42,768 nt of DNA, taken from assembly GCA_018609755.1 (NCBI GenBank), contig JAHENZ010000003.1:1-42768 (forward strand). Reading direction: 5' to 3'. The position numbers and the translations under genes are program-made. The notes below the pieces were generated by a model, which was not told the origin of the DNA, did not search any database, and saw only the letters and a list, made by a program, of their open reading frames with translations. Shown piece by piece: positions 221 to 29,458 of this stretch. The stretch is from Salinivenus sp. GTDB taxonomy: Bacteria; Bacteroidota; Rhodothermia; Rhodothermales; Salinibacteraceae. Every line of letters begins with the position of its first letter. Position 1 is the first letter of the stretch.

Positions 221-292
<72 letters not shown>

Positions 293-320
293 GGGGCTCA
301 CTGTCGAATTACGAGTTTCG

Positions 321-353
321 AGTTGCGAATAGCTCATTCCTTCATTCGCAATT
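321..353. repeat. Inter-tRNA palindrome (GCGAAT/ATTCGC type)
   Basis: AGTTGCGAAT (321-330) and ATTCGCAATT (344-353) are inverted copies with one G/T mismatch, separated by 13 nt, between tRNA-Thr(GGT) and tRNA-Gly. The surrounding 300-375 stretch is built from degenerate CGAATT/CGAGTT units. It may fold in the tRNA precursor and mark a processing site, or be a dispersed intergenic repeat. Confidence 0.6.
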
Positions 354-381
354 CGCCACTCGGAAGTCGAAACTGTCGCAG

Positions 382-453
382 AGCGGGAGACGGGATTCGA
401 ACCCGCGACTTTCACCTTGGAAGGGTGATGCTCTACCCCTGAGCTACTCCCGC
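382..453 (-). tRNA. tRNA-Gly (anticodon TCC)
   Basis: The reverse strand gives acceptor GCGGGAG/CTCCCGC with discriminator T. The anticodon arm TCACC-CTTCCAA-GGTGA reads TCC, and the T-arm contains GGTTCGAATCC. It is 72 nt with no encoded CCA. It lies between tRNA-Tyr and tRNA-Thr(GGT), matching the glyT position of the E. coli tufB operon. Confidence 0.96.
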
Positions 454-463
454 AGAAGCAATG

Positions 464-537
464 GCGAATTTCGAATAGCGAATGCCGAATGAGGTATGAT
501 CGACAGCCCCATTCGCAATTCGACAATCGAAATTCGC
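464..537. repeat. Strong two-tier palindrome between tRNA-Gly and tRNA-Tyr
   Basis: The outer arms GCGAATTTCGA (464-474) and TCGAAATTCGC (527-537) are perfectly complementary over 11 bp. The inner arms GCGAATG (478-484) and CATTCGC (510-516) are perfect over 7 bp. It is the same sequence family as the palindrome in the neighbouring spacer. In the tRNA precursor it would hold the two tRNAs apart in a long hairpin. A processing role is inference. Confidence 0.7.
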
Positions 538-546
538 AACTAAAAG

Positions 547-628
547 TGGGCCGGGAAGGATTTGAACCTTCGAAGGCAGAGCCGCCAGATTTACAGTCTG
601 GTGCGTTTGACCACTTCGCTACCGACCC
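547..628 (-). tRNA. tRNA-Tyr (anticodon GTA)
   Basis: The reverse strand gives acceptor GGGTCGG/CCGGCCC with discriminator A. The anticodon stem CCAGA/TCTGG holds loop CTGTAAA, giving anticodon GTA. A long variable arm makes it 82 nt, as expected for a type II tRNA-Tyr. It sits between tRNA-Thr(TGT) and tRNA-Gly. Confidence 0.96.
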
Positions 629-816
629 AGTATGGAGGACACAACACGAGGCGAAAATCACCGTCCCCCGGATCCGTCTTGCGATTGCTCTTCAAAACTT
701 ACAGGGCGGAAAAGTTGCCCGGGTGGGGGTCGAATTTCAAATGAAGAGCTCTTACGTTCAAGCCGTTACGTTCAATCGACTTCCCCATTACCCTCTTTCT
801 TTCCACTCCCAATCAG

Positions 817-889
817 AGCTGACGAGCGGACTCGAACCGCCAACCTGCTCATTACAAGTGAGCTGCTCTGCCAATTGAGCTACGTCAGC
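817..889 (-). tRNA. tRNA-Thr (anticodon TGT)
   Basis: The reverse strand gives acceptor GCTGACG/CGTCAGC with discriminator T. The anticodon arm GCTCA-CTTGTAA-TGAGC reads TGT, and GGTTCGAGTCC is in the T-arm. It is the first tRNA of the cluster, so the operon promoter should lie in about 890-960. Confidence 0.96.
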
Positions 890-972
890 ATACAGTCTTA
901 CGCCTCTCGATGATACCGGAGGAAATTCACGATTACGACCCCAGATTGTTCGACGATCAGACCACAGTCATC

Positions 973-1251
973 ATGAAACGTTGCCCCAATTGCGGTGCTC
1001 ATCGCGAGGACGATGACGACTACTGTCCCGTCTGCGGCGAAACCTTCCCGGCTCCGCACATCGCTGAAACGTCCGGTCCGTACTGGTACGAGCGGAGAGC
1101 CTACATGGTGACGTACGTGGTTCTCCTCTGGCCCGTGGCCCTCTACGGCCTGTACCAACGCGATGCGTGGGGCCAGAACGCCGACCAGTGGATGCTCATG
1201 GGGTGCCTCACAATGGCCGTTCTCTGGAGTCTCGTTTTGAACGTCGTGTGA
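973..1251 (+). CDS. Small zinc-ribbon membrane protein
   Basis: The predicted protein is 92 residues. It begins MKRCPNCGAHREDDDDYCPVCG, so two CxxC pairs form a zinc ribbon in the first 22 residues. Two hydrophobic segments follow (MVTYVVLLWPVALYGLY and WMLMGCLTMAVLWSLVLNVV), placing the ribbon on one face of the membrane. The frame is open from 910, but 890-960 must also hold the promoter of the divergent tRNA operon, so I prefer the ATG at 973, directly before the zinc ribbon. No specific function can be assigned. Such proteins occur as small zinc-ribbon/DUF families in many bacteria. Confidence 0.7.
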   Translation: MKRCPNCGAHREDDDDYCPVCGETFPAPHIAETSGPYWYERRAYMVTYVVLLWPVALYGLYQRDAWGQNADQWMLMGCLTMAVLWSLVLNVV

Positions 1252-1303
1252 CGCCCCTCGACCGGTCGATCGTCACCAGACCGAGGGCCTCACCAACAGG
1301 AAA

Positions 1304-1339
1304 CCCCGCTCAAGCACCCTCTCGGGCGTTGGAGCGGGG
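1304..1339 (-). terminator. Hairpin downstream of tRNA-Ala, probable terminator
   Basis: CCCCGCTC (1304-1311) and GAGCGGGG (1332-1339) are perfect 8-bp complements around a partly pairing loop. Read on the minus strand, the hairpin follows the tRNA-Ala gene and ends in only three T residues, so it is a weak intrinsic terminator. It could also serve the convergent zinc-ribbon gene. Confidence 0.45.
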
Positions 1340-1360
1340 AAACCAGCCTGTCAGGCGGAG

Positions 1361-1433
1361 TGGAGCTACGGGGATTCGAACCCCGGACCTCTGGAGTGCG
1401 ATTCCAGCGCTCTACCAGCTGAGCTATAGCCCC
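1361..1433 (-). tRNA. tRNA-Ala (anticodon CGC)
   Basis: The reverse strand gives acceptor GGGGCTA/TAGCTCC, in which base 3 is G and base 70 is T. This is the G3:U70 pair that identifies tRNA-Ala. The anticodon arm CTGGA-ATCGCAC-TCCAG reads CGC and the discriminator is A. It is 73 nt and convergent with the zinc-ribbon gene. Confidence 0.96.
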
Positions 1434-28240: not shown

Positions 28241-28675
28241 TCACTCCTTCGGCCAGGCACTTTCCTCCGGCAGATCGGCGTCGGGCGGCTGCAGGACGAG
28301 CTCGTCGGGCAGGTCGTTCACCTGATCGTCGGGGTTGACAACGGAGACGAGAGGCATGGCAAGAGCGGTAAAGAATTTGCCCATCGCCGCGATGAGAAAC
28401 TCCTGCTGAAGCTCGATCATGTCTTCTTCCAAGCGTCCGTCGTCGCGGACGTGCCCCTCAATGTCGAGGTACAGCACGCGGGGCCAGTCCGGAAACTCCT
28501 CCTGCGCCTCCGACAGCAGGTCGAAAATGTCATGGGCCGCCGTTTCGAAGTCGTCTCCCTTCCCTACGATGTGATAGAGGGAGACCGTATTGTCGAATTT
28601 CATGTGGATGCCGGGCGCATCCGGTTTGTCGTACTCCGGAACGAACTCTGGCGGATCTTCGCTCGAGGGACTCAT
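28241..28675 (-). CDS. Conserved-looking acidic protein of unknown function
   Basis: This 144-residue protein begins MSPSSEDPPEFVPEYDKPDA. A folded core follows (GIHMKFDNTVSLYHIVGKGD, FETAAHDIFDLLSEAQEEFP, WPRVLYLDIEGHVRDDGRLE, DMIELQQEFLIAAMGKFFTA), with a Pro/Asp-rich tail. The mix of predicted alpha and beta segments and strongly acidic composition look like a genuine cytoplasmic protein. I recognise no family. It follows the chorismate mutase gene on the same strand after an 83-bp gap, so it may share its attenuated transcript. ATG at 28675-28673 is preferred over the upstream frame to 28762. Confidence 0.75.
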   Translation of the reverse strand: MSPSSEDPPEFVPEYDKPDAPGIHMKFDNTVSLYHIVGKGDDFETAAHDIFDLLSEAQEEFPDWPRVLYLDIEGHVRDDGRLEEDMIELQQEFLIAAMGKFFTALAMPLVSVVNPDDQVNDLPDELVLQPPDADLPEESAWPKE

Positions 28676-28758
28676 AGAGCGGCTGGATGATTCGGAAGAC
28701 GTACAGCCTTTGAATGAACGCTCGGGACGAGAGATTCCCCCGATCCGCACCATCACGA

Positions 28759-29130
28759 TCATTCACAGCTTTCGGTGGACTGCCCGTTGGACGTAATGGA
28801 CGCCGCGTTCGCCGGGGAGGACGTAGATCCTTCGTTCGACGAGTCGTTCCGCCGCCTTCGCTGGCGCCGGACCGAATGCGAGAGAATCTCGTCATAGAGC
28901 CGACGGACGAGATCCGGCGAAAGGTCGTTTTCCTCAGCAATCGTTGCGACGTGGTCAAGGAGCTCAGCCTCTCGGTTCGGATCCTTCACGTTGTTTCCGT
29001 CTTCGGCCTTCATCTCGCAGATCTCATCGACGACCGCGTAGCGCTTGGCCAGTAGTTCAACGAAGCGACGGTCAATCTCGTCGATGCGCTCTCGCGCCTC
29101 TTCGAGGGAGGTTATCGTCGTAGTGGACAT
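28759..29130 (-). CDS. Chorismate mutase, AroQ class
   Basis: The enzyme converts chorismate to prephenate, the branch point to Phe and Tyr. The 123-residue protein has the AroQ helical fold: ITSLEEARERIDEIDRRFVE, LLAKRYAVVDEICEMKAEDG, VKDPNREAELLDHVATIAEE, then LVRRLYDEILSHSVRRQ. The conserved Arg (about 14), second-helix Arg and Lys, DPxRE, and final Gln are all visible. A disordered Ser/Asn-rich tail of about 30 residues follows. There is no fused prephenate dehydratase or dehydrogenase domain. ATG at 29130-29128; the longer frame to 29340 is excluded because it runs through the terminator. The gene is preceded by a Phe/Tyr leader peptide and terminator, so it is very probably controlled by attenuation. 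Confidence 0.9.
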   Translation of the reverse strand: MSTTTITSLEEARERIDEIDRRFVELLAKRYAVVDEICEMKAEDGNNVKDPNREAELLDHVATIAEENDLSPDLVRRLYDEILSHSVRRQRRRRNDSSNEGSTSSPANAASITSNGQSTESCE

Positions 29131-29205
29131 GGGCGGTGTCTCCGGTTCGTGGGGAAGGAGTGTGGAGAAGCGTCCGCCGGAAACGGCTCCCTCCGATCCA
29201 CACGC

Positions 29206-29243
29206 AAAAACCCGCCGGGGCCGAAGGGCATCGGGCCGGCGGG
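29206..29243 (-). terminator. Attenuator terminator before chorismate mutase
   Basis: On the minus strand CCCGCCGG (29243-29236) pairs with CCGGCGGG (29218-29211). An inner CCGA/TCGG helix and a 6-nt loop complete the stem, and five T follow (29210-29206). It lies 35 nt after the leader-peptide stop and 75 nt before the gene's ATG, the normal place of an attenuator. Confidence 0.88.
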
Positions 29244-29278
29244 TCGCAGAAACAAGAGTATTGGGTACAGAGCGCGTC

Positions 29279-29419
29279 CTACGTGTCGCCGGCCGAGAGA
29301 TAGAAATAAAAATACGCGTAGCCAAAATACGAAAAGGCAAACGCGCACAGTCCCCCTACGGTCTCGATGGACGCATCGAGCACAAACGGCGCGGCGGATG
29401 TAGGGGCGAGTGCATTCAT
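29279..29419 (-). CDS. Phe/Tyr-rich leader peptide of the chorismate mutase attenuator
   Basis: A 46-codon ORF starts with ATG at 29419-29417 and ends with TAG at 29281-29279. Its first half is ordinary (MNALAPTSAAPF). Residues 27-40 read FAFSYFGYAYFYFY, in which 11 of 14 codons specify Phe or Tyr, followed by LSAGDT and the stop. The cluster sits just before a transcription terminator and upstream of the Phe/Tyr branch-point enzyme, the logic of a ribosome-mediated attenuator. The alternative is a small membrane protein, since the segment is hydrophobic. An internal GTG at codon 13 could give a shorter leader. Confidence 0.8.
   Translation of the reverse strand: MNALAPTSAAPFVLDASIETVGGLCAFAFSYFGYAYFYFYLSAGDT
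29287..29294 (-). promoter_or_regulatory. Antiterminator segment in the leader
   Basis: On the minus strand GGCCGGCG lies in codons 42-45 of the leader, just after the Phe/Tyr run. It is perfectly complementary to CGCCGGCC (29241-29234), the rising arm of the terminator. A ribosome stalled early in the Phe/Tyr codons leaves it free to pair and block termination. A ribosome at the stop codon would cover it. Confidence 0.7.
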
Positions 29420-29427
29420 GACTGCTC

Positions 29428-29458
29428 AGACGGTACGTATCGCCGGTGTAGATGTCAA
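29428..29458 (-). promoter_or_regulatory. Promoter of the chorismate mutase transcript
   Basis: Minus strand: TTGACA (29458-29453), then, counting from TTG, 20 nt to TACCGTCTG (29436-29428). This fits both a -35 hexamer and the Bacteroidota TTG-n19-21-TAnnTTTG pattern imperfectly. The transcript would begin about 5 nt before the leader ATG, almost leaderless. Confidence 0.6.

Follow-up and report, generated by a model that had tools for sequence, protein, structure and literature searches.

A conserved Phe/Tyr-rich leader element in front of chorismate mutase genes in Salinibacteraceae: a predicted ribosome-mediated attenuator

Introduction

Why does the gene for a stand-alone chorismate mutase in Salinivenus sp. 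lie behind a short reading frame crowded with phenylalanine and tyrosine codons and a hairpin followed by a run of T? The question is raised by a stretch of 42,768 nucleotides (contig JAHENZ010000003.1 of assembly GCA_018609755.1), here called the window, for which an earlier note made from the sequence had proposed attenuation by a leader peptide. The pheL-pheA and trpL-trpEDCBA systems of Escherichia coli are ribosome-mediated attenuators (reviewed in PMC11802643), and a mixed Phe/Tyr leader, aroR, has been reported in front of the DAHP synthase gene aroF of Corynebacterium glutamicum (Neshat et al. 2014, as summarized in PMC11802643 and PMC4046766). A survey of Actinobacteria from 2005 reported that operons for Phe or Tyr lacked conserved structures (PMC1262725), and according to a survey from 2010, Proteobacteria and Actinobacteria were the only groups with demonstrated leader-peptide systems until it added its own cases from Firmicutes (PMC2965389). 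For Bacteroidetes there are only brief hints at leader-peptide attenuation, in Flavobacterium psychrophilum (PMC9723704) and Bacteroides (PMC7366714); the comparative survey by Lopatovskaya et al. (2010), as cited in PMC4833913, may list further cases. Our literature search yielded nothing useful about an element of this kind in Salinibacter, nor about leader-peptide attenuation of chorismate mutase genes in Bacteroidetes.

Results

The locus comprises the following features.

29430..29458, minus strand: candidate promoter read from the sequence, TTGACA (29458-29453), 17-nt spacer, TACCGT (29435-29430)
29279..29419, minus strand: leader ORF, ATG at 29419, 46 codons plus TAG, peptide MNALAPTSAAPFVLDASIETVGGLCAFAFSYFGYAYFYFYLSAGDT; 18 homologues
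about 29300..29342, minus strand: Phe/Tyr codon run, the predicted sensor, 10 Phe/Tyr codons in 14
29286..29295, minus strand: antiterminator segment CGGCCGGCGA, within the leader ORF, 4 nt upstream of its stop codon
29211..29243, minus strand: intrinsic terminator hairpin CCCGCCGGCCCGATGCCCTTCGGCCCCGGCGGG, -23.0 kcal/mol by folding
29206..29210, minus strand: T run of the terminator, TTTTT, read from the sequence
28759..29130, minus strand: aroQ, stand-alone chorismate mutase of 123 aa, PF01817 (type II, AroQ), E 3e-23
28241..28762, minus strand: ORF of 173 aa overlapping the aroQ stop codon (ATGA), no Pfam match

The succession of promoter, 46-codon ORF, Phe/Tyr run, segment, hairpin with five T and AroQ gene on the minus strand had been described in the earlier note and was confirmed. 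The PF01817 domain of the aroQ product is full-length and scores 82.2 bits, against a curated cut-off of 27; aroQ is the only copy of a chorismate mutase gene found in the window's genome and starts roughly 75 nt behind the T run. The 173-aa ORF is probably the second gene of the aroQ transcript. A similar ORF is also located downstream of aroQ in genome G018 (locus L006). Further away in the window, five tRNA genes lie in a row (221-1433, minus strand). When the window was scanned for consensus terminators and promoters, the attenuator element did not appear in the resulting list. For the promoter, this is probably due to the atypical -10 box, and for the terminator probably to its bulged stem; folding does detect the hairpin, and the missing entry does not speak against the element.

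Promoter-like boxes are present in 17 of the 18 homologues, with TTGACA (once TTGATA) as the -35 box, a spacer of 17 nt (once 18) and TAnnnT as the -10 box, followed by the ATG after 9-10 nt. The divergent locus L018 is the sole homologue without a recognisable -35 box. In the window, the leader ATG resides 10 nt past the -10 box and is not preceded by any Shine-Dalgarno-like sequence, i.e., the ORF is near-leaderless. Given the usual distance between a -10 box and the start of transcription, the 5' untranslated region of the leader would amount to just a few nucleotides. Near-leaderless leaders have precedent, because work cited in PMC4046766 describes the leader peptide of C. glutamicum ilvBNC as being made without a ribosome binding site.

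The aromatic run sets the leader ORF apart from all other reading frames in the window. Among 1047 stop-to-stop frames of 14-120 codons, it reaches 10 Phe/Tyr per 14 codons, while the runner-up reaches 6. Assuming that the leading edge of a ribosome extends 12 nt beyond the start of the A-site codon, stalling at 9 of the 11 Phe/Tyr codons in the window's ORF would leave the antiterminator segment free; in the other homologues, at most two such codons lie too close to it. Most of these codons end in T (114 of 154 Phe/Tyr codons in the leaders; for four genes of the window, the figure is 36 of 153), which may make decoding slower or keep the run unstructured. All 18 homologous leaders carry 4-12 Phe/Tyr within their last 25 codons, so the run near the end of the peptide is kept, and this is so even though the peptide itself diverges: the nearest relative shares 85% identity with the window's peptide, the others mostly 23-50%, and insertions and deletions are common. 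The possibility raised in the earlier note, that the ORF might be maintained for its protein while the aromatic content varies, is thus not borne out.

The segment near the leader stop codon contains the core CGGCCGGCG, and the 5' arm of the terminator is its complement. This arm, CCCGCCGGCC, is common to the antiterminator and the terminator helix, and the two structures are mutually exclusive. The segment is located exactly 4 nt before the stop codon and in the same frame in 17 of the 18 homologues, whereas the distance from the stop codon to the hairpin varies between 24 and 37 nt. Such a fixed spacing despite a variable distance to the hairpin is what is required if a ribosome terminating at the stop codon is to mask the segment. 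A terminator of -16 to -27 kcal/mol is situated between leader ORF and gene in all 18 homologues. Accordingly, there is no homologue that keeps the peptide and has lost the terminator or the complementary segment, a finding that would have spoken against the original proposal. A search of the 5.0-Mb genome for the inverted repeat GGCCGGCG-N(20-48)-CGCCGGCC gave a single occurrence, and a reversed control gave none.

The terminator stem is paired in 99% of the cells of the alignment and only one of its pairs has changed on both sides; it covaries little because it is itself too conserved. In the ten pairs of the antiterminator helix, 90% of the cells are paired and changes on both sides are found at four of the ten, for example in L016, where AGCCGATGGG is matched by CCCGTCGGCT, and in L009, where GACC is matched by GGTC. 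The compensatory changes that the earlier note had asked for are thus present in this helix. Its covariation exceeds that of all 500 shuffles and of every slid register, in a set of 14 distinct rows from related genomes that was aligned by hand on the core and in which the signal is concentrated in those four pairs. When compared with dinucleotide-shuffled linkers, the pairing between segment and arm has z values of -1.1 to -3.8. In 16 of 18 species, the antiterminator hairpin has a higher predicted stability than the terminator. In a swap control, segments paired with the arm of their own species at -22.2 kcal/mol compared with -20.6 kcal/mol for arms of other species. This preference is modest because the core is so conserved, and we therefore rely on the pair counts.

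Is there also a protector helix corresponding to region 1 of classical attenuators? In the trp/phe design, such a helix enforces termination when the leader is not translated, but attenuators of this kind can do without it. Fold ensembles suggested one, with partners at nt 21-32, and it was discarded after window scans and shuffles had traced it to GC composition. The segment can indeed pair with the upstream part of the ORF, but its pairing does not surpass that of shuffled ORFs (mean z -0.4), and the position of the upstream partner is not conserved among the homologues. Window scans and shuffles of the homologous leaders thus revealed no selected region 1, and in this sense, as a statement about the sequence, the earlier remark that the design needs no separate region-1 hairpin may stand. 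In models of the untranslated full-length RNA, pairing of the segment with the upstream ORF dominates, and GC-rich upstream stretches are predicted to be able to hold the segment. This RNA is predicted to fold into the terminator in 17 of 18 cases, and read-through would therefore depend on co-transcriptional kinetics.

With the window's protein as the query and an E value limit of 1e-6, 19 of the 27 genomes searched in the family yielded a chorismate mutase, and the complete element precedes it in 18 of these 19. We applied one uniform test to all loci, which asked for a frame with at least 4 Phe/Tyr per 14 codons and, behind it, for a hairpin with a T tract at -12 kcal/mol or lower. It recovered 18 of 18 loci in the element group (two of which had been taken in twice) and none of 49 other chorismate mutase loci from the same class. 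The latter include the second chorismate mutase gene of G010 as well as loci of the same family in G005, G006, G023, G024 and G025. Neither a terminator nor a convincing leader was seen at 40 genes for bifunctional chorismate mutases from other families of the class. A hidden Markov model of the leader peptide retrieved 17 of the 18 leaders and no further convincing match from 245 genomes of the class. The leader ORF always stands in front of a chorismate mutase gene. No leader family of Rfam matched, either at the gathering score or at E values up to 1, which means that the catalogue misses this element.

The enzyme behind the element is not the same in all genomes. In G001, G007 and G002, the element precedes a fusion of chorismate mutase with type I DAHP synthase and in G010 a fusion of chorismate mutase with prephenate dehydratase, the leader of the latter containing 6 Phe and 2 Tyr. 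A stand-alone chorismate mutase follows in the remaining element-bearing genomes. In a phylogenetic tree built from 90 chorismate mutase domains, with few columns and weak inner branches, the leader-bearing domains fall together with a number of fused enzymes (97/89) and are separated from stand-alone mutases linked to tsaD. The simplest reading is that the attenuator once belonged to a bifunctional enzyme and stayed in place when the partner domain was lost. The earlier description of the regulated gene as a stand-alone mutase needs correcting in that the gene, although stand-alone in the window and most element-bearing genomes, apparently descends from a bifunctional fusion. The window's genome yielded no match for a type I DAHP synthase; it harbors only a type II enzyme, elsewhere. 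Immediately behind the chorismate mutase gene of G018, a relic of a type I DAHP synthase is spread over three frames (L006, C19:62204-62746). Apparently, this relic is an intermediate on the way to losing the fusion partner, the alternative being a sequencing error. In many other genomes of the class, belonging to other families, the stand-alone chorismate mutase gene directly follows the apparent end of tsaD; this neighbourhood is fixed and includes no leader (e.g., L106, L108, L110, L112, L115 and L121).

Inspection of further pathway genes in the family uncovered Trp-rich leaders with terminators in front of trpE in many genomes. Loci with this arrangement are L270, L274-L278, L281, L283, L284, L286, L288 and L292. 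The trpE gene of the window's own genome is preceded by the leader L287 (G000, contig C96, upstream of 19996), MISAARTTSQSWRLWWPPSRVWSPCCA, whose tail CGGGTCTGGAGCCC faces GGGCTCTGGACCCG at the terminator. As judged by its sequence, it is a Trp attenuator in the same family as the aroQ element. As in the aroQ leader, a segment near the end of the ORF is complementary to sequence overlapping the 5' side of the terminator, while the amino acid sensed would be Trp instead of Phe and Tyr. L287 has no match in Rfam. A convincing His leader was not found in front of hisG in the family, nor a convincing Phe/Tyr leader in front of the genes for type II DAHP synthase, unfused prephenate dehydratase and other DAHP synthases.

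Discussion

We consider it very probable that aroQ is controlled by ribosome-mediated transcription attenuation and induced by a shortage of Phe or Tyr. The steps from transcription start through leader translation and stalling to read-through and a response to Phe/Tyr are derived from the sequence and would proceed as follows. RNA polymerase would start a few nucleotides before the leader ATG, followed by a ribosome. With ample charged tRNA-Phe and tRNA-Tyr, the ribosome would reach the stop codon and cover the CGGCCGGCG segment, the terminator would form and transcription would stop before aroQ. If Phe or Tyr ran short, the ribosome would stall in the aromatic run and leave the segment free; the segment could then pair with the terminator's 5' arm immediately after the synthesis of this arm, and transcription would continue into aroQ. 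The sensed residues fit the products: Phe and Tyr in front of chorismate mutase or its DAHP synthase fusion, mostly Phe in front of the prephenate dehydratase fusion of G010 and Trp in front of trpE. Prephenate is the common precursor of Phe and Tyr, so the sensor is linked to a real branch point.

In principle, the same anatomy could have other explanations. The ORF might encode a functional small hydrophobic, possibly membrane-bound, peptide, with the hairpin as its own terminator and aroQ being transcribed from a promoter of its own. Its C-terminal half is aromatic and partly hydrophobic, a terminator follows the ORF and the peptide model is specific for the family, all of which would suit such a peptide. 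However, the peptide drops to 23% identity and tolerates insertions and deletions, yet the segment and its complement covary, and the ORF is always found ahead of a chorismate mutase gene; we regard this explanation as very unlikely. Slightly less credible still is that another factor, be it an RNA-binding protein, Rho or translational coupling, acts on the leader and that the aromatic run does nothing but slow translation. Codons that mostly end in T might slow any ribosome and an Rfam match is lacking, both of which would suit this explanation, but the terminator and the antiterminator need no factor to be complete, and the sensor residues fit the pathway, with Trp taking their place in the trpE leaders. 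As regards a chance arrangement in GC-rich intergenic DNA, inverted repeats rich in GC are easily found and the upstream region-1 pairing does not exceed that of shuffled sequences. Nevertheless, we give this explanation next to no weight: conservation of the element in 18 of 18 loci of its group against 0 of 49 elsewhere already refutes it, the repeat is unique in the genome, and the antiterminator helix shows compensatory changes.

Ribosome-mediated attenuation can also be specified further, and here our confidence is considerably lower. The element may be a near-leaderless attenuator of just two helices, free of a region 1, in which the ribosome at the stop codon permits termination, and this module may have stayed with chorismate mutase while the partner domain was exchanged or lost. 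We put this forward tentatively, as a version that we would sooner doubt than accept. If it is true, loss of leader translation would result in read-through and not in super-attenuation.

The element is uncatalogued and conserved in its family, and the kind of switch is well known and not mechanistically foreign. It shares with pheL-pheA and trpL of E. coli a leader rich in the regulated amino acid, alternative hairpins and a gene of the aromatic pathway. It differs in that Phe and Tyr would be sensed together, in the location of the segment inside the leader ORF just before its stop codon, in the lack of a detectable selected region-1 helix, in being near-leaderless and without a Shine-Dalgarno sequence, in its Rhodothermia-like lineage and in having no Rfam match. 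C. glutamicum aroR, as far as described in the sources cited above, likewise has a mixed leader (Phe-Tyr-Phe) at the entry of the aromatic pathway, but it belongs to another phylum, contains three aromatic residues instead of ten and precedes a DAHP synthase and not a chorismate mutase gene. The aroQ element thus adds a sequence-complete attenuator supported by covariation to a lineage in which such leader-peptide systems are barely documented. As one attenuator precedes two types of fusion as well as the stand-alone mutase, it provides a natural series for testing how well the sensor fits the enzyme.

The earlier note had considered a mixed Phe/Tyr sensor on a monofunctional chorismate mutase to be uncommon in this lineage. 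This point needs correcting: The device runs through much of the family, has a Trp counterpart at trpE, and mixed Phe/Tyr leaders exist in Actinobacteria. When 71 loci from other phyla were scanned, FYFYY leaders with strong terminators emerged in front of stand-alone chorismate mutase genes at ten Micromonospora loci, for which we found no published description in the literature covered. Like the aroQ element, these apparent Phe/Tyr attenuators combine a mixed Phe/Tyr leader, a terminator (-24.8 kcal/mol), a stand-alone chorismate mutase and a complementary segment near the end of the ORF, whereas the peptide is unrelated, the terminator and antiterminator sequences are different and the hosts are Actinobacteria. 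From its sequence, the Micromonospora leader looks convergent with the aroQ leader. Loci with the FYFYYGTGSPAAVGRA ORF are L075, L078-L081, L083, L085, L087, L089 and L091, and a variant of this leader, together with a terminator, precedes a stand-alone chorismate mutase gene in Rhizocola (L074). Given the Micromonospora and Rhizocola leaders, a Phe/Tyr sensor has probably become associated with a stand-alone chorismate mutase on at least two occasions.
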